Source: Haliotis asinina
Taxonomy: Eukaryota; Mollusca; Gastropoda; Lepetellida; Haliotidae
Assembly (NCBI RefSeq): GCF_037392515.1
Contig: NC_090295.1
Coordinates: 14,093,001 to 14,157,000, forward strand
Direction: 5' to 3'
DNA length: 64,000 nucleotides
Part shown: positions 3,538 to 45,151 of the stretch, one piece after another
Numbering within the stretch: the stretch's first letter is position 1
Layout: each line of letters begins with the position of its first letter
Position numbers and translations under genes: made by a program
The notes under the pieces: model-generated
The model's input: the letters and a program-made list of their open reading frames with translations, nothing else
What the model was told of the DNA's origin: nothing
Databases searched by the model: none

Positions 3538-4022
3538 ATTGTAAACCAAAAGTTACTGAGTTCTGTAATCTGATTGGTTGAAAAACATGATTAAATGGTA
3601 TTATATTCCCGGAAACTGAAAGACTATTCACCGCGTATTGACACGTAAACAAGTGTTTTGTTGTGTCATCAACAGTGGCGACGTCATTCAAATCATATTG
3701 TGACGTAAAGTTAGAATGACGTCACAAATGAGCAACTCCAGACGCTACCATGGGAACCAGCTGAAACGGCCAGCTGATGACACTTCACTGCTGTATCCGT
3801 ATTCGATGTAAACGAGTGCAGACAGTAAAACCCCTTTGGTTTACTTTTGTGTTTACAATGTCGATAAACATCATGTGTTGGCCAATTTCCGGGTGTTATT
3901 GAGTATTTGAAGCACGGGAATATTTCATTTGAAACCTCCGGGTGATGCCGTCGGTTCCAAATGCATTCCCGTGCTTCAAATACTCAATAACACCCGGAAA
4001 TTGGCCAACACATGATGTTTAT
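3538..4022. mobile_element. Composite MITE copy 1: CRE-rich 320-bp body plus 159-bp hairpin
   Basis: The body 3538-3859 starts ATTGTAAACCAAAAGTTA and ends in the near reverse complement (..TTTTGTGTTTACAAT), so it has short terminal inverted repeats. It carries two TGACGTCA-type CREs, one TGACGTAA site and an inverted CCAAT ('TGATTGGTTG'). A hairpin follows at 3864-4022, with about 58-bp arms ('ATAAACATCATGTGTTGGCC' to its complement) and a roughly 43-nt loop. Two more copies lie at 15446 and 25633. The shared minus-strand open frame of about 50 codons follows from repeat identity and is not evidence of a gene. Confidence 0.8.
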
Positions 4023-8531: not shown

Positions 8532-10747
8532 ATGCTTCCCACCGTCATCGCTCTGATCTTCTGCATTTGTCTGATGGCTCTTCCCGGTGTTCAAGGACAC
8601 GGGCGTTTGGTAGAACCCCCTTCTCGCTCAAGTATGTGGCGGTTCGGCTTTGACAACCCCCGCAACTACAACGACAACGAACTCTACTGCGGAGGATTTC
8701 AGGTGAGCTGAATGCAACTGTTTTGTAGCGATTAAGTTTCCAGGGGTTTTAATTATGTAGTTCTTCTTGTCAAATTGCAGTGTTAAGTTGAATGCACTTA
8801 TCAGGATCCTTTGATAGCGAAGTCCAATATCAGACTCATCCTAAATCTATAATTATTAGTTTGTCAACAACAAAACAGTAAACCACCTCAGTCTTGATTG
8901 CCTGTAAGTGAGTGAGTGAGTACGATTTTACGCCGTTTCATCAATAATCCAGCAATATCATGGCAGGGGAACACCAGGGCGGGGCTTCGCATATTGTAGC
9001 CATGTGAGGATCGAACCCAGGTAATCGGCATGAAGCTTTTACCACTTGGCTACCGCACCGCCCACTGACAGGCTGCACTGTAACTGAACCTTGCAATTTT
9101 ACATTGGTTTTCATGAAAATATGTGTGTGTGTCGTGTTTTCTCCTGATCACATAAAATGTAAAAGTAATGTAAAAGTTCTTCGGGTTCCAGACACAGTGG
9201 CATGTACACGGCGGGAAGTGCGGTGTTTGTGGTGACCCCTGGAACGGAACCCGAGAAAACGAAGCTGGTGGAAAATATGCCAATGGTATTATTGTCCGGA
9301 AGTACATAAACGGGGAGACAATCACTATCAACGTTGATCTTACAGCCAATCACTTGGGTAGGTGTAATATGGACTTCAAGTCTGAAAACTCTTCAAGAAA
9401 AACTGTATTTGTAATAAGATAATAAAAAACCATAATAAATCCATAATAAAAAACAGAGTTAATAATAACCCCTCTGATTGTTCCTTAAAGTCAAGTTTGA
9501 CATTTACACGTGGCAAATCTTCACCAAGTCAAAGATTCTTAATCAAAACTGGCATATAGTTTTCTCGTATTTTTCATTTCATTCCAGTTATAAAAACATG
9601 GGTTTTTTTTCATTTTGTCAGGTTACTTCCAATTCCGCTTGTGCCCTCACAATAACCCACTGACTCCAGTTAAACAGGAATGTTTAGACAGATATCTTCT
9701 CAGGCAAGCAGACGGAAGTGACCGCTTCAATGTCACCACTTCACGTCGGGGAATATACACCATGGCGGTCGTACTTCCAGAGCATGTCACATGCTCCCAA
9801 TGTGTCCTTCAGTGGAAATACAATACAGGTACTAATATGCATCATCGTAAACACGTGAAGATCCGGGTTAGAACTGATTTTCCTTCACTCACTCTTGTTA
9901 TTGGCAACTAACATAATCCATGATCAGGCTCGCCGACTTGGTTCAAACGTTATAGTATCCCATTTGTGTTTAGATCGATGTCGTGCTGTTGATCGCAGGA
10001 TTCTCTGTCTTGATAGATTGCCGCCATACGGCGAGAATGTTGCTGAGTGCGGCGTAAAACTAAACTGAACTTATATTGAACATACATGTCTGCAGTATTT
10101 CTGTAAATAGGAACATGTATGTTTCGGCGAGTGTTTTAGCTAGTATTTGTCAATATTGTCCATCTTTTAGATGTATACTTTCATTTGTTCGACATTTTGT
10201 CACATGTGCCTTTTGCATATTTCGGGGTGGGGAAAGTGAAAATGCCGTGATGAAAGTCGGTTCATCGCCTTATTTGATTGCAGGTAACTCTTGGGGATGT
10301 GAGGGCTCAACTTGTTGCGTTGGTTGCGGACCCCAGGAACAGTTCTACGGCTGCGCAGATGTCGCAGTCTCAACAGACGACAACGACCAGACGACATCGC
10401 CATCCTCTACAAGCAAGACTTCTCCAATTCAGGAGACTACGAAACCAGTCGTCGAGCAGACGACATCTGAATCCCCAGATACCACAAAACCTTCAACCGA
10501 CACCTCAACGACTTCTACCTCAGCGACAACAGTCACATCTACCCCCGCATCAGCTGCGACGTCTGCCACTAGCGTTACCGACAGCACAACGGACAACAGC
10601 GATGGTACTAGGGACGACTGTAAAGCAGTGGGTGTTTGGGAAGGAAACCCAAGAATCGATGTCTGGTGTATAGGCAACTGTGCACGTGGCTACTGTCCAA
10701 ATGATTATTGCTCAGCAGCCTGTCGCCAGCTGAAGGAAGCCAGCTGA
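8532..10747 (+). CDS. Secreted AA15-type lytic polysaccharide monooxygenase with C-terminal Cys-rich module
   Basis: A copper enzyme that oxidatively cleaves chitin or cellulose, predicted to be secreted. The four exons are 8532-8702, 9192-9357, 9622-9828 and 10284-10747. All have GT/AG borders and the phases join, giving 335 codons plus stop. Residues 1-22 are a signal peptide, and cleavage exposes His23 as the N-terminal brace histidine (HGRLVEPPSRSSMW). His111 (TANHLGYFQF) is the second brace histidine. Tyr203 (EQFYGCADV) is the likely axial residue. Cysteines at 67, 70, 120, 133, 170, 173, 187, 192, 193, 196 and 205 fit the AA15 disulfide-rich fold. A Ser/Thr-rich linker (about 211-290) leads to a six-cysteine module (Cys294-Cys328), probably substrate binding. 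All key residues are present and no break is seen. An upstream in-frame TTG at 8490 is not needed. Substrate preference cannot be read from the sequence. Confidence 0.92.
8900..9066 (-). repeat. tRNA-derived SINE, family A, in LPMO intron 1
   Basis: The plus strand shows (GTGA)n and 'TTTTACGCCG' first and ends in 'GGCTACCGCACCGCCC', so the SINE reads on the minus strand. Its B box 'GGGTTCGATCCTC' is intact. It is near full length and lies wholly within intron 1, so it does not disturb the coding sequence. Confidence 0.85.
9920..10072 (+). repeat. SINE family B, 3' half, in LPMO intron 3
   Basis: It contains 'CAGGCTCGCCGACTTGGTT', 'TGTTGATCGCAGGATT' and the tail 'GAATGTTGCTGAGTGCGGCG' followed by TAAAAC. 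It is intronic. Confidence 0.75.
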
Positions 10748-15100: not shown

Positions 15101-15445
15101 CTGTGACGCCAAACGTCTCGAGTTGGGGAAGAACAAACGCGCATGCTTATCGTGACGTCACTTTGTTAGAACATAAGCTGTTCTAATCAAAACACACGCC
15201 GTCCGAACAGATATCAAACCTTAGAGAAGAGATACTGTCCCAACGTGTTCATTTTATTAAACTATGTAAACTATGCCTTCTGATAATCTACTCTAGAGGA
15301 TGCCTACTCATTTATTTATCAGTTGTAAACATATATAGCCCGATTTAACCCAGTTATTTAGAACATTTTGCGGAATCATATTCCTCTTGCAGACTACACG
15401 CATTGTCGATCTCCTTCTCGGAAGAAAATGTCCAAGTTAACAGAA

Positions 15446-15793
15446 ATTGTAAACCAAAAGTTACTGTGTTCTGAAATCTGATTGGTTGAAAAACATGATT
15501 AAATGGTATTAGATTCCCGGAAAGTGAAAGACTATTCACCGCGTATTGACACGTAAACATTTGTTTTGTTGTGTCTTCAACAGAGGTGACGTCATTCAAA
15601 TCATATTGTGACGTAAAGTTAGAATGACGTCACAAATGAGCAGCTCCAGATGCTACCATGGGAACCAGCTGAAACGGCCAGCTGATGACACTTCACTGCT
15701 GTGTCCGTATTCGATGTAAACGAGTGCAGACAGTAAAACCCCTTTGGTTTACTTTTGTGTTTACAATGTCGATAAACATCATGTGATGTTTAT
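15446..15793. mobile_element. Composite MITE copy 2, hairpin absent
   Basis: It carries the same CRE-rich body as copies 1 and 3 (15446-15767). At the hairpin position it has only the 22-bp palindrome ATAAACATCATG/TGATGTTTAT, exactly the outer ends of the hairpin arms. This is either a clean palindrome deletion or the pre-insertion state. Confidence 0.8.
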
Positions 15794-18850: not shown

Positions 18851-18991
18851 GAAGCTAATTTTAACCGTACATCCTTTTTTTGGTATTGCCATGGTTTAAT
18901 GCTTCATGTCAAGGAGTAAATTCTAACTCACTCTCTGCTATTTGTAATCCTGTATGTAAACTATATGATTGTAATCTATAAATTATTTCAG

Positions 18992-20114
18992 GTACTAGAA
19001 GCATGGACGAACACAAAAAGCACCTGGACAGTATTTTGGCAAAATGTCAGAATGGAAGAAATATGCTTCTGTTATCAAAGAACAAATATGAAAAAATTGT
19101 CCAGTATTTGAAGTTAGGCACAGGAGCTTCCTATCGGTTCAAAAGTTGGATCCAGCGTCGACGCTTCCAGTTGTTGCAGCTGCCGGATGAAGACCAGACT
19201 GAAGTACTTGTGGTACCTAAACAAGATGGCATGTCCATGGGTTATGTCAGGGTCTTGCATGAGAATCAGATTTATGGGAAAGTACGAGATATTCATGTCT
19301 GTGTGCTAAACCATGGGAGTTACACTCAAACACTTCAGTCTGTTTCTGACCTTTACTATGACATTTCAAAAGATTATATTTCTGAATTTGTGAGAAGATG
19401 TGACTGCTGTCAAACCAATTCTACAAGTGATGGCATTTCAAACAGTGATTTTCAGTCTTCTTCCACAATGAAGGCATCACCCAGACCCTTGAAAATGATG
19501 AACAAAGTTGCTTCTTACTTCTTGCAGGATGTGTCTGTCAACATCATAGATATGAGACTGAAACCATCAAATGAATTTTACTTCATTGGTCATGCTGAGG
19601 ATCAGTTTTCAAACTTCAGTGTCTTGTTTCCTCTGAAGAATGACAGTTCAAGGGAAATAGCCAAAAATTTAAAGAAATATTTTTTAAGTTATTTTGGTCC
19701 CCCTAAGAATTTATCCAGTGGTGATACGCCAAATATTGCCAAGGCGCTTGATGAAGTTACTGATTCATGGAAAGGTAACAGTCTTTCATTTGCGCTTGAT
19801 GGCATCAAGATTCAAATTCAAGATGCAGAAACATCAGCAACTGATGAGGTAGCGACTTTTATACAGGACAGCATTTGCCTCATTGCAGCTGAGGGCTATA
19901 GTGAGACAGAGTGGTCAGATTGGCTCCCAGAAATCATGTTGAAATTGAACGTGGCAAGGAGGCCTTCAGCTTCTCAAGCTCCTTACACTGTAGTGTTTGG
20001 TCAGCCAGCATCAGTTCTGTCTGAATTTGATGAGTTTCTACCTGGTCGAGATGGCGGTGATCTTTCTGCACAGGAGAGCCCACACAATACCATGAAGGAC
20101 ACAGAAATGAATAG
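18992..20114 (+). CDS. Integrase-derived host gene, exon with zinc-binding and integrase-core-like region
   Basis: An intact host exon encoding residues 1-370 from Met at 19003. It begins after the acceptor ATTTCAG and ends at a donor GTAAGG. Residues 20-60 resemble the N-terminal segment of KRBA2/SCAND3-type proteins (LLLSKNKYEKIV, then KSWIQRRRF). An HHCC-type zinc-binding module spans about 98-136 (His98, His104, Cys133, Cys136). An integrase-core-like fold follows at about 175-335 (SVNIIDM, FGPPKNLSSGD, WSDWLPEIMLKLN, then APYTVVFGQPA). The catalytic core as a whole does not look conserved, so a structural or DNA/protein-binding role is more likely than strand transfer. The open frame, splice signals and fusion to the next exon argue for a domesticated gene rather than a transposon copy. 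The family assignment is from remembered protein patterns. Confidence 0.75.
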
Positions 20115-20697
20115 GTAAGGAAATACATCTTTACATACAAAACAGTAGTCACAATAAAACTTTTAAAAAAATTAAAAGAAAAAGGGGAAAGGATGACTAT
20201 GAAACGTCTGTTGACTGAAATGCTTTGGGTCATTGAATGAATGTCACGTGACGATGTTTGACTGAACTGATAAGAATTCTGGAGATACACAGGGATGAGA
20301 ATTTTCGGAGAATCTGTGTGATTCTGTGTATTTGATGGCACTGGTGCCGTTCATGATATATGTTATATTGTTTCAATTAACACGACTCCAAGGAGGCCCA
20401 GCCCATTTTCCTCTTTTTTAACTCATACCAATTCTCATCCTCGGATACACTTGCATCATGTAAGCAGATATTTTGTAGCAGACATATTTTGTATTGGGCA
20501 ATGCCCAGTACATTGATATAACAACTAGGTGTCTGGAATGCTAAATTCAATGTTGCAGTTTTGATGAAGTGGATACCTGTTTTATATGAGATATATTATT
20601 TTATTGCTCGTGATTGCTATCTCTAAATGAAATGAAATGTGGTGAATTGTTCTGAACAATGGCTACAGATTCTCACAGCTCTTTATTTTTCCTTCAG
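20115..20697. other. Phase-2 intron of the integrase/HTH gene
   Basis: The intron runs from donor AG|GTAAGG to acceptor TTTTTCCTTCAG. The split codon AG+A (Arg371) is restored on joining. No repeat was recognised. Confidence 0.7.
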
Positions 20698-23278
20698 ACA
20701 TGAAGAACAAAGCCATGATACATCAAATACATCATTGAGAGATGACCCTAATCCCTTGACACCCATGTTTGTTGATGTACATGTGAAGCAAGAACCAGCT
20801 TCTGACGAGGAGTCTGGAAGAGCAGTATTTGCAACAATCAAAAACAAAAGTATTGGAGAAACTCTATCTGTGTCTGGAAAAAAAAGAAACCTTCATCTGG
20901 GCCTAAAAGTTAAGGAAAATACAAGTGAATATTCAGTGGGTAAGACACAATTGCCTTGTGACAATTCAGAGATTAAGCAGGAAGATACAGAAGATGCAGA
21001 AGTTCCTTGTGAATCTTCTTGCAATGTTCCTGTGGACTCTAGAAGGGAAGATGATGGGTCAATAGAATCTCCACATCAGGATAATGGTACCTATAACATA
21101 AACAGTCACCACCATGGCCAGGAGGTTGGTGACACTGGTACCTCTGTCCAGACTCCACCAGTAACTGTACCTTGGCTTAAAGTCAGCAAAATGGAATGGC
21201 ATTCTCCAAGGCAAGCTTCAGATGTAGATGCTTCAAGAATAGATGCTTCTAAGACAGCTGCTTCTGTACCTGATGTTTCAAGGAGAGATGGTTCAAAAAC
21301 AACTGATGGTGATCCCAGCTTGATCGAGGATTGTGATGATCTGATGACAAGACCTACTGCTGGAAATGGGGATGAAACAAATTCTGAGGATTTGGGTCAC
21401 TGTGTAGAGATAGATATTGCAGAAGAAGACAGCTCATGGGACCCTTGTGCTGAACAATCCAGAGAAGGTCATCAAATGAGAAAGCCAATACATCTCCCTC
21501 CCCTAGAGACACAGGAGATGAGAAGGAAACTCACCAAGGAGGATGTCTGCTTTGTTGAAAGATTAAAGAGACAGAATCCGATACTGATTCTCTCTGAAAT
21601 AAGAGAACATCTCCGCATCGAAAGAGGTGTTGAGGTTCATGTCTCAACTATCTCCAGAGCAATGAAGAAGAAGAGTAATTCCTATCAAGAAGCAGCTTCT
21701 CTAAATTCTCAAGATGAATCCCAGGAGACAAAACTTTCACCATCTGAGCATGGATCTAATGGAAGACACACAGAAAACACAGAGAGGAAACAGTTAATGC
21801 ACAAGAACTTCCTACCCCAGGATGAAATGTTCTTGACCTATTTGTTGCATAAGAAACCATATTTAACCAATGAGGAGGTCAGGGAACAATTAGAAAGGCA
21901 AAGAAACTTGTCCATCTCCTTGCATTATCTAAATAAAAAAATATCAGGAATGGTTGCCCATCGTAAAAGCCATGAGAATCAACTAGCCCATAGACAGGGA
22001 AGGGTAGATTCATCAAGGAACAGGGATGCCAGCACAATGGTAGGTTCACCCTCTGGAACTGAGACTTCTGTCACCTTGCAGGGTCAGCACATGATGCTGC
22101 ACCAAAAACAGCCTTCAGTCATGAAGAAATGGACTTCAGTAGGCACCAATGGCAGTGAGACCATCATGGGTGAAAATTCTTTGAAGCAAACAGCAGTTCC
22201 TCAGTCAAAATCATCGCCTGTCCATGATGAACAGTTACGCTCTAGAAATTTGTCAAGGAAAATGATGATGCCTACCAAAAGAAAGATTCATGATAGTTTG
22301 TTTGCAGATTTGCCAGACAGTCCACGTCAAGTTCTGGAAAATGGTAGGAATAATAATTCTAAGAAAAAACCCCAGAATTTCCATGCAGGATGTGAATCTG
22401 TTAATCAGCATGTTACAAATATTTCAGTGGACAATTGTATGTCTCCAGAGTTGAATGATGAGGACACTGAACTGATGGTTCAGAGCAGTATTCCATCACC
22501 AGTGAAAAAGGAAGTGGAGACAGATCAGGAAAGCTTCTTTGGATATGAAACCAGGAACGACATGCCTCATAGAAATGGTAAACTTCAGCCTGCTGATTTG
22601 GACTTTCTAGAATGTTTGAAGAGACAAAACCCAAACATCACCTTGACTGAGATGAAGTATAGGCTTCTGGATGAGAGGAATCTTGATGTCCATGTGTCGT
22701 CTGTCTGCAGAGCTCTGAAGAAACTTGTTTACACTCAAGAAGAGATGGAACCTAACTACTTAGTCTATATTAACAGCCAAGAAGCAGGAGGTTCTGCTGA
22801 ATATCAAGTTGATAATGAGGATGATTCTTTGTTGAATGATTCTCAGTTTGATGAATGTTCAGAGCCCCAGGTGGCATATTCAGATGAATATGTTCAATCT
22901 AGCAACAGTGATAACTTCTCACACAGGATATCATCAGGCAATTTGTATTCAGGATCACCAGATTACACCCTCCAAGAAGAAGCTGAGGATGAGAGACATT
23001 CAGGAAACCTGCTGAAGTTAGTGGTGGATGCTAGGATGGAAAGTGAGTTGGATGGTCTGGATGTGACCAACAACAAGAAGCTGACGCTGAAGGACATGCA
23101 GCTCATAAGGCAACTGAAGACAGATGATCCATCCATAACTCTGAGGAACATGAAAGCCTGTCTTTTAAAGGAGAATGGTAAGGATGTGCACCTTTCAACC
23201 ATAAGTAGAGCTCTCAAGAAGATGAATGGGTCACTGAACCATGGTAAAACAGGGGATGTTATCGACCTTACATTGTGA
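20698..23278 (+). CDS. Integrase/HTH gene, exon with four HTH repeats and C-terminal SUMO-interacting motif
   Basis: It continues the previous exon in frame. Together they encode 1,230 residues from Met 19003 (1,240 with the tentative micro-exon). Most of the exon is acidic, Ser-rich and probably disordered. Four related modules are spaced through it: about 649-701 (21530-21690), 743-789 (21812-21952, most diverged), 1000-1048 (22583-22729) and 1166-1214 (23081-23229). Each follows the pattern L...D..F...LK..NP.ITL.EM...L..E...DVHVSTISRALKK. That is the helix-turn-helix layout of Tc1/mariner transposases and of the RED half of paired domains. SUMO-acceptor-like sites occur (VKQEPASDEE, EIKQED, VKKEVE), and the protein ends GDVIDLTL, a textbook SUMO-interacting motif. 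I infer a nuclear DNA-binding regulator. No exact counterpart is known to me. Confidence 0.8.
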
Positions 23279-23380
23279 GCCAGTGCTGACAGGAATATCG
23301 AGGCCTGGCTGTTGAATGAGAATGGTGAGGAAGCACGCCTTTCAACCATTAGTAGGCCTCTGAAGCAGCGTTCAAAATAA
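23279..23380 (+). pseudogene. In-frame fifth HTH repeat fragment beyond the stop codon
   Basis: Directly after TGA (23276-23278), and in the same frame, 33 further codons read to TAA at 23378. They contain NIEAWLLNENG and RLSTISRPLKQ, which match NMKACLLKENG and HLSTISRALKK of repeat 4. The first half of the module is missing. This is either a decaying duplicate now in the 3' UTR or a read-through extension. The stop context TGA-GCC is not the classic strong read-through context. Confidence 0.75.
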
Positions 23381-24065: not shown

Positions 24066-25632
24066 TTGTGTTTGACATTAGACTTTCTGTATGAAGAATG
24101 TAACTCATTCAGCTAGGATGCTTGGGATGTCATATAAACCAATACGACTGCGGTAAATGATGATGCAGAACTGAACGTCATTGTCATCCACATTCAATAT
24201 ACACAGTTGTCTTCAATATTGTGCGACAGCACTGAGACATACTTCAGTTGCTGTTCCACCAGCCGTTTACCCCTTGCTGTGAAGCATGAATATAGCACAA
24301 TATTACATGATGGTTTCATAAACAACCTTTTCCACGATCAGTCATGAAAATGTCATATTTCAGATCCTGTTGGGTGGAGAGGTTACAGGACCATGTGTCT
24401 TTTTTATGTTTTGTGCACTTATCCCTATTTCGAGTTATGTAATCATTCATCATTCTCATTTGAACCCAAGCGAGCTATAAATGCATGTGTGTGAGGCTTT
24501 AGTCATTCAAGTTCAAGTTATGTCTTTTTGTTTTTTTAGGGCGGGGATGTGCCCACTGTCTCAGTCATCCACTGTACATGGTTTTGTAGTTTTAGCATAA
24601 TAGAAGGTTAGGTCTTGGGTTCAGATCATTTGCTTGCTTGAACATGTTGAAGTGGTAAACATCTGGTGCCTGCATCTCAGCAGGGCTTCAGATAATTTGG
24701 AGTACTGGTATGTACTCATTATTTTTTCAGTGTAGGAGTACTGGGAAACTGTCATTGAACATTGCAAGTACTGGATGGAATTAAATGGAGTTCCAGTAAT
24801 TTTGTGTTTCATTTCACGTATCTACCCCAACACTGGTACTTATGTGTGAAACTGTCAATAAACAATAAAACAATGTTTTTTCAGATAAATACATTTGTAA
24901 ACAATTCTAAGACTGTACACCATTGGTGCATATCTGCTATGTTTTCACAAATGTTTTCTATTGTATCGTGCATATTTGTTATAGTGTTCCCCCAAGGGTT
25001 CAGAAAGAGCAGGGTAAATTCATGGAAAAGGGCACTTCGTAACCTCAAAGGGCATGTTGGTAAAGATTATTGAAAAAACAACAAAATGTATAAGAAGTCA
25101 AATTGTCTTATAATTTCAATTCTAAAGTTTGTTTTTACTCTTCTCAGTTTGTATTTTAAGATTAGAATTTGAAAAAAGCATTTCAAATCTGGAAAATACG
25201 CACTAGTCATAGTAAAGGACTGCAATTGAGGCGAAAAAGGGCAGGACGCTGCGCCCTCCTAAATGTGCCTAGGGGGAACACTATTTTATGTGTGTATATA
25301 GGCTGATACGACCCAAATGTGGAGTCCTGTCATGTTTTGATAAAACACTATCAATCCCAACTCACTCACTACTGAAAAAATGAGTGTTCAAGGTTTGTAG
25401 GAATACAGCATATGACTCCAAACAGATGTTTACAGTGTTGTTTCCTCAGGGTCAGATGAAGTTATTTGTCTTTAGTTTTAAATGCTTGTGATAATATATT
25501 TTGAATCTCACACTGCCTCCACGTGTATCGATACATACCTCAGTCATGGAGTCATGATAGGTATCCAGAGACTTGTTTTGTGTTTAAAACTAATAGTCTT
25601 TTGCTGGCAAAATGAAGACAGATATTTGGTTA
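24066..25632. other. 3' flank of the integrase/HTH gene, nothing definite
   Basis: It is AT-rich, with AATAAA-type hexamers near 24859-24870 that could serve as poly(A) sites. No other repeat or exon was recognised. Confidence 0.35.
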
Positions 25633-26115
25633 ATTGTAAACCAAAAGTTACTGTGTTCTGTAATCTGATTGGTTGAAAAACATGATTAAATGGTATTATA
25701 TTCCCGGAAACTGAAAGACTATTCACCGCGTATTGACACGTAAACAATTGTTTTGTTGTGTCATCAACAGTGGTGACGTCATTCAAATCATATTGTGACG
25801 TAAAGTTAGAATGACGTCACAAATGAGCAACTCCAGATGCTACCATGGGAACCAGCTGAAACGGCCAGCTGATGACACTTCACTGTTGTATCCGTATTCA
25901 ATGTAAACGAGTGCAGACAGTAAAACCATTTGGTTAACTTTTGTGTTTACAATGTCGATAAACATCATGTCTTGGCCAATTTCCGGGTGTTATTGAGTAT
26001 TTGAAGCACGGGAATGTTCCATTTGAAACCTCCAGGTGATGCCGTCGGTTCCAAATGCATTCCCGTGCTTCAAATACTCAATAACACCCGGAAATTGGCC
26101 AACACATGATGTTTG
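25633..26115. mobile_element. Composite MITE copy 3 with hairpin
   Basis: The body 25633-25953 has the best terminal inverted repeats: ATTGTAAACCAAAAGTTA against TAACTTTTGTGTTTACAAT. The hairpin 25958-26115 has the same arms and loop as copy 1. Body and hairpin have therefore moved or been copied together. TGACGTCA and TGACGTAA sites are kept. Confidence 0.85.
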
Positions 26116-39714: not shown

Positions 39715-41990
39715 GTGGTGGGGCAGGCTTCGTTTCCGGAGCAGAACTCAAAAACCGTTCAATATTGTTTTGCAAAACTTGGTAGATAGGTGTGGCAGAC
39801 CCCAAAGTGGTGCCTTTTGCTGTGTACAGGTTTTTGTGATTTATTATTTTATCGGTTTCTATGGAAATGTTTTAGACTTAGTCTCAAAATGGAGGAATGG
39901 GCTTCGTTTCGAGCAGAACTCAAAAACTGTCCGATATTTTTCTGCAAAACTTGGTAGATATACCAATCAGAAGCTGCAATGGTGCCTTTTGTTAGTTACA
40001 GGTTTTTGTCATTTCTTAGTTTCTCGGTTAAATGGAAACGATCCAGACTTTGTATCAAAAGTGATAGGTGTGTTTCGTTTCCGGAGCAGAACTCAAAAAC
40101 TTCTAAATATCTTTCAGCAAAACTTGGTAGATATGTGTTGCAGACCCTAAAGAGGTGCCTTTTGGTATTTACAGGTTTTTGTGATTTATTATTTTCTCAG
40201 TTTCCATGGAAATGTTTCGGACTTAGTCTCAAAATGGAGGGATGTGCTTCGTTTCCGGAGCAGAACTCAAAATCTGTTCAATATTTTTCTGCAAAACTTG
40301 GTAGATATATCAGTCAGAAGGTGAAGTGGTGCCTTTTACTATGTACAGGTTTTTGTGATTTATTATTTTCTCGGTTTCCATGGAAACGTTTCGGATATAG
40401 TCTCAAACTGGAGGGATGGGCTTCGTTTCCGGAGCAGAACACAAAAACCGTTCAATATTTTTCTGCAAAACTTGGTAGATATATCAGTCAGAACCTGAAG
40501 TGGTGCCTTTTGCTATTTAAAGTTTTTGTAATTTATTATTTTCTCGGTTTCCTTGGTTTCAGACATATTCTCAAAAGTGAGAGGCGTGTTTTGTTTCCAG
40601 AGCAAAACTCAAAAACTTCAGCAAAACTTGGTAGATGTATGTATGTATGTATGTATGTATGTATGTATGTATGTATGTATGTATGTATGTATGTATGTAT
40701 GTATGTATGTATGTATGTATGTATGTATGTATGTATGTATGTATGTATGTATGTATGTATGTATGTATGTATGTATGTATGTATGTATGTATGTATGTAT
40801 GTATGTATGTATGTATGTATGTATGTATGTATGTATGTATGTATGTATGTATGTATGTATGTATGTATGTATGTATGTATGTATGTATGTATGTATGTAT
40901 GTATGGTTTCCTGAGCAGAACTGAAAAACTTCTTAATATCTCTCAGTAAAACTTGGTAGATATGTGTGGCAGACCCCAAAGTGGTGCCTTTTGCTATTTC
41001 CTTTTTTTTTTTTGATGAACTATTTTCTCGGTTCCATAAACATGTTGCTGACTTCGTTTCCAGAGCACAGCTCGAAAACCATTTCATATCTATCAAAAGA
41101 TCTTGGCAGATATACGAGACAGATCTTGAAATGGTGACTTTTTCTGATTATAGATATATGGCATTTATACTTTCCATGAATTCCATGGAAACGATTCAGA
41201 CTTGGTCTAAGAACACAATAAGTAACTGTCCGATGATTTGTCCTTTGAAATATGTGGGGGCCGGGGGGATATGTCATCTTCTGATGACTCTTGTTATTTT
41301 ATTTTTTTGTTTTTCCATGGAACATTTTGGTGTTTCTTATTCTGCAAAACCTTTCAATATTTTTCTGCAAAACTTGGTAGATATATCAATCAGAACCTAA
41401 AGTGGTGCTTTTTGCTGTTTACAGGTTTTTGTGGTTTCTTATTTTCTCGGTTTCCATGGAAATGTTTTGGACTTAGTCTCAAAATGGAGAGATGGGCTTT
41501 ATTTCCGGAGCAGAACTCAAAAACTTTTCAGTATTTTTCTGCAAAATTTCATAGACACATCAGCCACAACCTAAAGTGGTGCCTTTTCATGCTTATAGGT
41601 TCTTGTGTTGTATTATTTTCTCTTCTTCAATGGAAACGCTTCGGACATAGTCTCAAAATGGAGGGATGTGCTTCGTTTCCGGAGCAGAACTCAAAAACCG
41701 TTCAATATTTTTCTGCAAAACTTGGTAGATATATCAGTTAGGACCTGAAGTGGTGCCTTTTGCTATGTACAGGTTTTTGGGATTTGGCATTTTCTGGGTT
41801 TCCATGGAAACGTTTTGGGCTTTGTCTCAAAATGTATAGGTGTTTTGTTTGCAGAGCACATCTCAAAAACTTTGTAATATCTGTCAGCAAAGCTTGATAA
41901 TATATGTGGCAGATCCCAAAGTGGTGCCTTTTGCTATGTACAGGATTTTGTGATTTATCTGCTGAGTGCCTTGATACAGATCCAGTCCTG
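39715..41990 (+). repeat. 174-bp satellite array, about a dozen units, intronic
   Basis: Units repeat 'GGGCTTCGTTTCCGGAGCAG', 'CTGCAAAACTTGGTAGATAT', 'AAGTGGTGCCTTTTGCTATG' and 'TTCTCGGTTTCCATGGAAAC' at 172-174-bp spacing (for example ACTTGGTAGATA near 39777, 39949, 40123, 40297 and 40471). Since 174 is 58 codons, one plus-strand frame stays open over several units. The array is broken by the ATGT tract and by less regular units at about 41000-41330. I treat the open frame as a consequence of unit length, not a gene. Confidence 0.85.
40635..40905. repeat. (ATGT)n microsatellite, about 67 units
   Basis: An uninterrupted 271-bp tetranucleotide run starts within a satellite unit right after CTTGGTAGATG. 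Apparent proteins of alternating M-Y-V-C or I-H-T-Y are its translation. Confidence 0.95.
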
Positions 41991-42447
41991 CAAGGAAAAC
42001 ATCTGCAGATTAAAGTTGATCTCTGACGATATTTTTCAGTTGATTTCAAACACTTACTTATCATCTGAATTTAAATGTTGATGTTAATATAGAGTTAGAG
42101 ATAGCAAAACCTGGAAAGAGGTCTTATGTAAAACGTTGAAATAGGTCTTACTTACAAATTTAAAACCGGGAAATAGGTCTTACTTTCAGAAAGTAAACCC
42201 TGGAAACAAACAAACCTTTATTGCAGTTATTCCGGGAAAAGAAGCCATGCCTAATATATAGTGAGAAACAACCTTTAGGTTTATGTTTAAGTGGTAAAGA
42301 TAGTAAATGTCGAAAACCTGCACCACTCCAGATTTTCCATCGACATCAAACTGACAAGACTGAAAAGACTGTTTAAAGAGACATTAAACCCTATTCACAT
42401 ACAGGTTCTGATACATGTAAATTCCATTTTTATTTGCTCTGTTGCAG

Positions 42448-45151
42448 GAAACGGCCTGCCTCCATACCAGGGACTAGTGCTCACAGCAGTCTGACATCCC
42501 ATTCTGGCAACACTTCTCTCATGGATTCACAGGACACCAGAGACTCAAGCACCTGTTCTGTGTATGGGGATGTCAGCGAAAACTTTGGTGAGAGTGCATC
42601 AGAGAAAAAATCAGAATCCAACAAAAATGGCTTCTCTGAAGGGTATAACAGCAAGAAGTCATCGAGAAGGAAACAGCCTAAATCTCGAGTTTCGAGATAT
42701 CTTGAGGATGAGAATGAAGCTATTGCTGCACACGAGAGAGGTGACATGGAACCTGGACTTGAAGGGTTTGATGCTGAACGACTCAAGTGGGACCAAGATG
42801 ATATGGAGAATGAGGAATTGGGTTCTAGAGACTCTATAGAAGCAAAGGAAGATAGAACTCAGTTGTCAGACGATGAAACTGAAGAAGATGACCCAGACAG
42901 AGAAGAGGCAAATGAATTTTTGTCCGAGGAAGAGCTTGAGAAGCTCCTGAAAGGCAGTGAGTCAGAGACAGATGCTAAAAGGTCGAAGAGGAAGAGAGAC
43001 TCTGATAGTGATTGGATGCCTGCAGTGGAAGAAGAAAAGCCTCGGAGAAGACGATCTCGAAGGGTGTCTAGACAGAACTCAAAATCTGCTGTTGTGAAAA
43101 GCCGAAGGTCGCTGAGAAGGAGGGTGAGTACATCAGCTGACGAGTCGTCTGAGATGGAAGAGGAAGTGGAGGTGAAGCGGGAGAAAAATCCAAGAGGAAG
43201 ACCAAGAAAGACCAGGAAGGATAGTGTTGGTGAGGAAGAACCGAAACAAATTCCACGTTCACAGAAGCCAAAACTTATGAAGAAGTCAGGTGTTTTCACC
43301 TGCACTGTTTGTGAGAACAGTTTTACAAACAAGGAGGAAGGTAAAGAACACTTGGAATCACATTATGTCATTGACTGCAATCTGTGTACTCACAAATTCT
43401 ATTCGTTGCAAGCACTTGCTCATCACCAAAGTAAAAAGCATCCTGCAAATCACAAATGCAATCATTGTTTCTTTACTGGTAGGACGCGCATGGAGCTGAA
43501 GCGACATATGAGGAAAGAACATCAGGATGAACAGACCATCCCTGGAACCACCTTGTGTCACATCTGTGGACAACAGTTCCGATTTGTGGTCAATGTCCAG
43601 AAACATTTGATGGATGCTCATGGCATAATGGAATCGAATATGAAAACCTACATGTGTGATCAGTGTGGGAATGAGTACTTCTTGAAGCACTCCCTCCGGA
43701 AACATATGCTTACTCACAAGGAGAAGAACATTGTGTGTGATTTTGAAGGCTGTGCAAGCAAGTTTTCCAGTGATGCTCAGTACAAGCGCCATTATAACAC
43801 TGTGCATCTGAAAATCAAAAGACATGCCTGTCCGTATGAAGGCTGTGAAATGAAATTTGCATTTAGGAAAACAATGGCTACCCATGTGAACATGGTTCAT
43901 CTGAAGCTGCGTCTATTTCCGTGTCCGTGGCAAGGATGTGAGCGAAGCTTCTATGCTAAGAAACACCTCACCGTTCATATGAGGATTCACAATGATGAGA
44001 AGCCATTTAAATGCCCTGAGTGTGACTATAAGTGTAGGCAGAGAGCAGCCCTCAATTGGCACTTGAAAAAACATGGGATTGTCCCAGATCATCCAGAAAG
44101 CCTGGAGAATGAAAAGAAGAACAAGAAAGAAGGATTTCCGGTCAACTTTAAAAGAGGTCGGAAGAGGACACGCTTCAGGAAATCCAAAGGATTGGATTAT
44201 ACCGATGACCAAATTGCAAGCATTAACCAAAGATACAGTGAAATGGTGACAGAATCATCACAACAGTACCCAGCTAAAGAGGACTCATCTGATGGAGATG
44301 TTGATGATCCTGATGATGTACCTAAAGATACTGCTGGAACAGCAGACCAGGCCAGTTTCAGTGAAAAATTTTCTGGTGGTCAGTCTGTGAGTAACACAAA
44401 CAGTGTGGATGACTTCAGTTTCATTGAGCGGAGGGAAAGTCAGATTGTCACACGGCCTGCTGAGGTACCCCCTGGATATGTTGGAAGGGATTTCAATTCT
44501 AATTCTCCTGCTCAAGAAACCTTCACATCCGAATTGCCAAAACGCGAAGTTGATTATGCACGGCTCGATTACGATGCTTCACAGGCTACCCACAATGATT
44601 TTACATCTAAGCAAGTCGTTAGAGATCCAGAATACCAGTCAGTTCAGGAGGGGGACTTTCAACAAAGTCGAGATAGTTTCTCGTCAGTTCGAGAGACAAA
44701 CTTTCAACCAGTTAGAGATACATCTTTTCCAGCCAGTCGTGAAGGTAGTTATCCTCCAATCAGAGACACCGATTTTCAAGTTCGGGACACTCAGTCAGAT
44801 TTTCGAGGATACCCAATGAAAGAAAATCTTGACACAGATCGTGCTGGTGTTTTCCCACGATTCATCAGCAAGGATGTTTTTGGAACCAGTATGCACAGAG
44901 ATGGACATTTTTCTCCCCGCCCTCCAATTAAAGAAGCATACATTGCAGGTCAGGCCTTGTCTGAAGTTGATTATTCACGCTTTGCTGCCAAGAATGAGCT
45001 TTCAGCTCTACGCACACTTCCTCCTGGGTTTCAGGGGCAAATGGAAGTCCCATCAGAGTTTGATCCTCGATCTCCAGTTCATGCAGTCATGGGAGGCAAC
45101 TCTGGAAGTTACGGACATGACCTTCACATGTACAGTCGTGAATATAAATAA
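42448..45151 (+). CDS. C2H2 zinc-finger gene, exon 2: AT-hook, nine zinc fingers, disordered tail
   Basis: It joins exon 1 in phase to give 959 residues in all. An acidic, Ser/Arg-rich N-terminal half holds basic clusters and an AT-hook (RGRPRK, 308-313). Nine C2H2 fingers run about 342-601. Fingers 6-8 have the C-x4-C spacing (CDFEGC, CPYEGC, CPWQGC), and finger 9 is CPECDYKCRQRAALNWHLKK, closely like the matching finger of ZNF653/ZNF692. With the exon-1 motif this places the protein near that family, probably as a nuclear sequence-specific regulator. The C-terminal tail (about 750-830) has degenerate short repeats of the form R-[DE]-[TS]-x-F-x-P. No break is seen. Orthology to either vertebrate gene is not proven: this protein has more fingers. 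Confidence 0.88.

Follow-up and report, generated by a model that had tools for sequence, protein, structure and literature searches.

We studied a 64,000-nucleotide stretch of the Haliotis asinina genome (C16:14093001-14157000 in an assembly of 1,143,192,487 bases and 159 contigs), hereafter the window, and focused on a two-exon coding frame that joins an integrase-derived module to repeated helix-turn-helix (HTH) units. Positions given without a contig are those of the window. Coding exon 1 (18992..20114, + strand; ATG at 19003) and coding exon 2 (20698..23278, + strand; stop codon at 23276-23278) flank a phase-2 GT-AG intron (20115..20697, + strand), and translation of the spliced frame gave 1230 residues with no internal stops. 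The original prediction of two exons joined in phase with a rebuilt Arg codon was borne out: the codon is restored across the junction and, with approximate weights, the donor AG/GTAAGG at 20114/20115 ranked 12th among the 4116 GT dinucleotides and the acceptor TTCAG/A at 20697/20698 second among the 3554 AG dinucleotides of the window's + strand. The predicted end of the gene at 23278 held; the start at 18992 depends on a putative, weak acceptor (18990-18991) that ranked 643 of 3554. A codon score trained on a zinc-finger frame within the same window placed the right frame top or nearly so in both exons, weakly and near zero in exon 1 and mostly positively in exon 2, whose coding signal begins close to the acceptor; the intron scored negative in all three + frames. 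Without splicing, the frame of exon 1 meets its own stop at 20116-20118, within the donor site. The product of exon 2 is the acidic chain that had been predicted, with 141 D/E residues against 105 K/R.

An Integrase Module with Altered Catalytic Residues

Exon 1 encodes both parts of the N-terminal module originally proposed, an HHCC zinc module and an integrase-like core. The zinc module (19294..19410, + strand) has the spacing H98-X5-H104-X28-C133-X2-C136, the HHCC arrangement of the DDE integrase superfamily, and matched Pfam Integrase_H2C2 at E 0.0016 and 19 bits, under the cut-off of 25.5; structure prediction of this part was of low confidence. The core (19501..20046, + strand; residues 167-348) is RNase H-like and homologous to the integrases of the same superfamily. 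Searched against PDB sequences, exon 1 reached PFV integrase at E 0.2 only, level with unrelated secretion proteins.

The D-D-E triad is not intact, N180 and G240 standing at the aspartate columns and D281 at the glutamate column. Of the 13 other rows in our alignment, 11 have D in column 180, the exceptions being the C7 frame described below (S) and one relic (P). Column 240 is covered by 11 rows, of which 9 have D, and column 281 holds E in all nine covering rows. D241 and E282 sit one residue past the latter two columns, and a register shift could bring them back as catalytic residues, though not N180. By established integrase chemistry, strand transfer is very unlikely once the first aspartate is gone, and the integrase part of exon 1 has probably lost its ability to cut.

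Repeated HTH Units in Exon 2

Four copies of one HTH module, 50-250 residues apart, had been proposed. Three are clear: R1 (21530..21673; residues 649-696), R3 (22583..22726; residues 1000-1047) and R4 (23081..23224; residues 1166-1213), all on the + strand, are 42-49% identical in pairs, and each, when held out, scored 41-50 bits against the profile of the remaining two. Against the three-copy profile, no shuffle out of 1000 scored above 4.2 bits. The fourth, R2 (21812..21952, + strand; residues 743-789), is marginal, with 3.8 bits against the three-copy profile, a score reached by 1 of 1000 shuffles, with 7.1 bits, -1.4 bits and no match against the three two-copy profiles, no Pfam match, and 35% identity to R3 across 34 residues. 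The linkers R2-R3 and R3-R4, of 210 and 118 residues, lie within the proposed range and R1-R2, of 46, falls below it.

The paired/Tc1-like character of the repeats was supported. Structure prediction of repeat R1 gave three helices (12-24, 30-41 and 47-64) matching the RED subdomain, with Pax6, Pax5 and Tc3 within the five best structural matches. The repeats align to Pfam HTH_32 from model position 25 or later, no paired-box family appeared in the Pfam list at E<=10, and no PAI half of a bipartite paired domain was found. Against the PDB, the repeat profile found Pax5 at E 0.0042 and SNF8, via two weak stretches, at E 0.00037; exon 2 itself found nothing useful among PDB sequences and matched an IS630 transposase of NCBIfam at 42 bits, below the cut-off of 100.

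A half repeat that the original proposal did not include, R5 (23291..23368, + strand, 78 bp), lies past the stop codon in the same frame, 147 bp downstream of its match at 23144-23221, the second half of R4, to which it has 77% DNA identity. Since R5 matches half of R4 in the same frame, the array appears to have multiplied inside the gene. Over the 26 codons of R5, nonsynonymous divergence (dN) from R4 was 0.18 and synonymous divergence (dS) 0.77. The comparisons among R1, R3 and R4, made within one gene and not between species, gave dN of 0.47-0.61 with dS of 2.7 or saturated, as expected if change in the protein was constrained while the copies diverged.

The product ends in VIDLT (23258..23272, + strand), which resembles a SUMO-interacting motif (P 0.009 against shuffles, the motif having been chosen after it was seen). 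The three psi-K-x-E sites present are no excess over shuffles (P 0.11), and the idea of a SUMO link was set aside.

Copy Number and Genomic Relatives

A genome search with exon 1 at E<=1 (110 of 187 candidates scored) gave at least 71 matches, the gene itself at 842.6 bits and the next at 38.3 bits with 25% identity over residues 95-339; among the matches listed, shorter fragments reached 37% identity. Exon 2 matched only itself (4 of 4 candidates scored). R4 had five matches at E<=10 (5 of 5 candidates), of which four fall within the locus and the fifth, at E 8.3, outside it, and all three matches of R1 were at the locus (12 of 12 candidates). No second copy of either exon was thus found among the scored candidates, and the several copies that characterise Ginger1 elements were likewise not seen. 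Neutral evolution was simulated in 400 trials: at 0.05 substitutions/site a single trial preserved the full open frame, and at 0.1 none did, while the frame of exon 1 by itself survived in 9.5% and 2% of trials, respectively. Because neutral drift would soon close the frame, the gene is most likely maintained by selection.

A direct repeat of 340 bp at 15445 and 25632 (96%) brackets the gene. We rejected it as long terminal repeat (LTR)-like flanks, as a third copy at 3538 (96%) identifies a dispersed element; with this and no second gene copy found, the claim that this is a host gene and not a mobile element was supported. The three copies (3538-3880, 15445-15784 and 25632-25970; 96%) share one strand and by eye have short inverted ends, and the element looks like a young nonautonomous DNA element. 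Looking for terminal inverted repeats such as those of Ginger1 elements, we found four inverted matches between the gene's flanks at E<=1, the best 74% over 188 bp, partly coincident with the window's dispersed repeats.

To place the integrase, we built a tree from 14 selected rows, namely exon 1, a stop-to-stop frame of 474 codons on contig C7, four relics with an LIDM signature and eight LTR-type rows. Exon 1 clustered with the C7 frame and the relics (93/94), apart from the LTR-type rows. It still joined the relics when the C7 frame was left out (91/90), as did the C7 frame without exon 1 (96/94). Exon 1 and the C7 frame each sit on a long branch, a situation in which, the tool warns, the grouping may be spurious. 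The LIDM signature may also be present in vertebrate KRBA2. One relic keeps both aspartates (L041), two keep the first with the second uncovered (L022 and L031), and one has neither (L017).

The C7 frame (L040:3984-5408 on G000:C7, minus strand) belongs to the integrase group of exon 1, has an acidic tail, and carries S at both aspartate columns with E retained; nearby lies an incomplete second copy, 98% identical, of the first part of the frame. The C7 frame is possibly an independent domestication of an integrase, and it suggests that this integrase group may have undergone more than one domestication in a single genome, which makes repeated co-option testable. A genome search with it (150 of 322 candidates scored) gave at least 97 matches, several with internal stops, and reached exon 1 at E 3.6e-5. 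The same integrase group has eight similar matches at G000:C12:42980040-43024536, spread over about 45 kb on one strand and with two internal stops listed for each; they form a local array of broken copies. At G000:C16:14086348-14087028 (L008), some 6 kb upstream of where the window starts, an integrase lies in an open frame of 996 amino acids; its score against exon 1 equals that of three other loci, and it is likely a young LTR-type element.

HTH_32 has at least 150 matches in the genome (150 of 6977 candidates scored). Of the 150 listed, 20 loci were compared with the repeats and only one (L046) matched, to R3 at 22.8% identity and E 0.029; no HTH donor was found among those 20. In IMG/VR, no relatives of exon 1 or exon 2 were confirmed, one and nine pattern stretches, respectively, having failed confirmation.

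Other Sequences in the Window

The zinc-finger frame at 42377-45151, 924 amino acids with C2H2 fingers, is a probable neighbouring transcription factor. An open frame of 227 amino acids at 10064-10747 is Thr/Ser-rich, contains cysteines and has no useful Pfam match; one cysteine-rich segment presumably resembles the end of AA15-type lytic polysaccharide monooxygenase proteins. The region 39958-41741 holds open frames with internal repeats, together with a long microsatellite of 4-base units that translates as MYVC/THIH repeats; it is a repeat array and not likely to be a gene. Dispersed repeats farther downstream resemble those of abalones.

Proposed Function and Alternatives

We give about even chances to the gene being a host gene, found once in the assembly, whose very likely noncatalytic integrase exon and acidic RED-HTH exon together make a multivalent DNA-binding regulator. 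The joined frame, the integrase homology, the altered catalytic columns, the HTH units and the failure to find a second copy are given by sequence and prediction. Exon 1 would contribute a nearly complete integrase module from a group that left decayed copies in the same genome, and exon 2 an extended acidic chain bearing RED-type HTH units, three or perhaps four in number, that multiplied inside the gene. The zinc module and the integrase core would self-associate or recruit partners, as the zinc modules of integrases are reported to mediate self-association (PMC5384227, PMC12863088). The HTH units on their long acidic linkers would bind several DNA sites together, with high avidity at clustered sites. 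We infer a protein that self-associates, binds DNA and acts in the nucleus, more likely as a repressor or chromatin organiser than as an enzyme. Repression is favoured by analogy with ZBTB11, a vertebrate transcriptional repressor with an integrase-like HHCC module and a zinc-finger array (PMC5384227, PMC12062965), in which function is lost when the HHCC residues are point-mutated and repression of TP53 requires Cys116 (PMC5384227). In a bolder version, HTH heads of Tc1/paired origin would read Tc1/mariner-like ends while the dead integrase multimer ties the copies together, silencing them or organising chromatin; we hold this very unlikely, but if true it would be a protein guarding against repeats and made entirely of mobile-element parts.

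The analogy with ZBTB11 is imperfect, as the protein still rescued with its N-terminus or its zinc fingers deleted (PMC5384227). Imagin, a Ginger1-derived protein of malacostracan crustaceans, lacks the triad but retains the H2C2 module and the integrase fold, and is found in the oocyte cytosol (PMC12863088). On this precedent, the product could be a domesticated scaffold or RNA binder outside the nucleus, without sequence-specific DNA binding; this is unlikely, as the repeated RED-type units point to DNA, whereas the accessible text on Imagin mentions no HTH (PMC12863088). The stop of the unspliced exon 1 would suit two adjacent genes wrongly joined, the first integrase-derived with its end at 20118 and the second encoding the HTH units, but that stop lies within a donor that, like the acceptor, is among the window's best, the frame is kept, and the coding signal of exon 2 begins near the acceptor, which makes a misjoin highly improbable.

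The half repeat past the stop, the degenerate R2 and the altered catalytic columns are what a decaying gene with still open frames and little or no constraint might show. Such decay is quite unlikely, as 1230 codons are open despite an old divergence from all relatives found, and a simulated neutral frame was lost fast. Finally, integrases and Tc1-like HTHs are both mobile-element parts, and the frame could be a coding gene of an unrecognised element; no second copy of either exon was found among the scored candidates, the bracketing 340-bp pair has a third copy, and N180 replaces a catalytic aspartate, so we regard this as extremely unlikely.

Relation to Known Proteins

Like ZBTB11, the protein combines an N-terminal integrase-like HHCC module of the zinc class HX3-7H-X23-32-CX2C with a C-terminal DNA-binding array. 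The BTB domain and C2H2 fingers of ZBTB11 have no Pfam match in either exon, whereas the present protein keeps the integrase core and its array is of HTH units. Imagin is alike in keeping the H2C2 module and integrase fold without a catalytic triad, and has a disordered region, but comes from another host group and another locus, an MMUT intron; reading the protein by eye, we saw no YPYY motif, present in Ginger1 and Imagin, ahead of the zinc module. Gin-1 and Gin-2 derive from Ginger1 (PMC2836005), and GIN1, KRBA2, SCAND3 and NYNRIN are mammalian integrase-derived host genes (PMC3257199). The latter four resemble the present gene in their integrase origin and in having introns in the 5' untranslated or coding region. 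We know of no HTH array in any of them, and exon 1 may have a special kinship to KRBA2 and SCAND3.

On the HTH side, the Pax paired domain and Tc3 share the RED subdomain, but here no PAI half and no Tc1 DDE domain were found and the unit is repeated. Proteins of the Pipsqueak family carry several HTH-Psq units in one DNA-binding regulator. They would thus share with our protein a repeated transposase-type HTH, although of the Pogo type and with a BTB instead of an integrase partner. This family is covered by PMC10027918, PMC6262030 and PMC5127561. Fusions of BTB/POZ with integrase zinc binding number 828 proteins, 808 of them chordate, and F-box genes captured the Mos1 HTH (PMC12062965); transcription factors derived from mobile elements occur across animals, and CENPB and HTH-Psq genes bearing an rve signature are reported among them (PMC10027918). 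The claim that no such protein was known is too strong, because the HHCC module and array of ZBTB11, the F-box/Mos1 HTH and the rve-bearing CENPB and HTH-Psq genes precede it. Each half and the fusion principle are already known; our literature search, whose coverage of subscription papers is incomplete, found no report of a near-complete altered integrase combined with an array of RED-type HTHs. In Lophotrochozoa, including molluscs, practically nothing was known of such domestication according to a 2023 survey (PMC10027918), and the gene described here would be a domesticated integrase made into a multiheaded DNA binder through fusion to an internally multiplied HTH.
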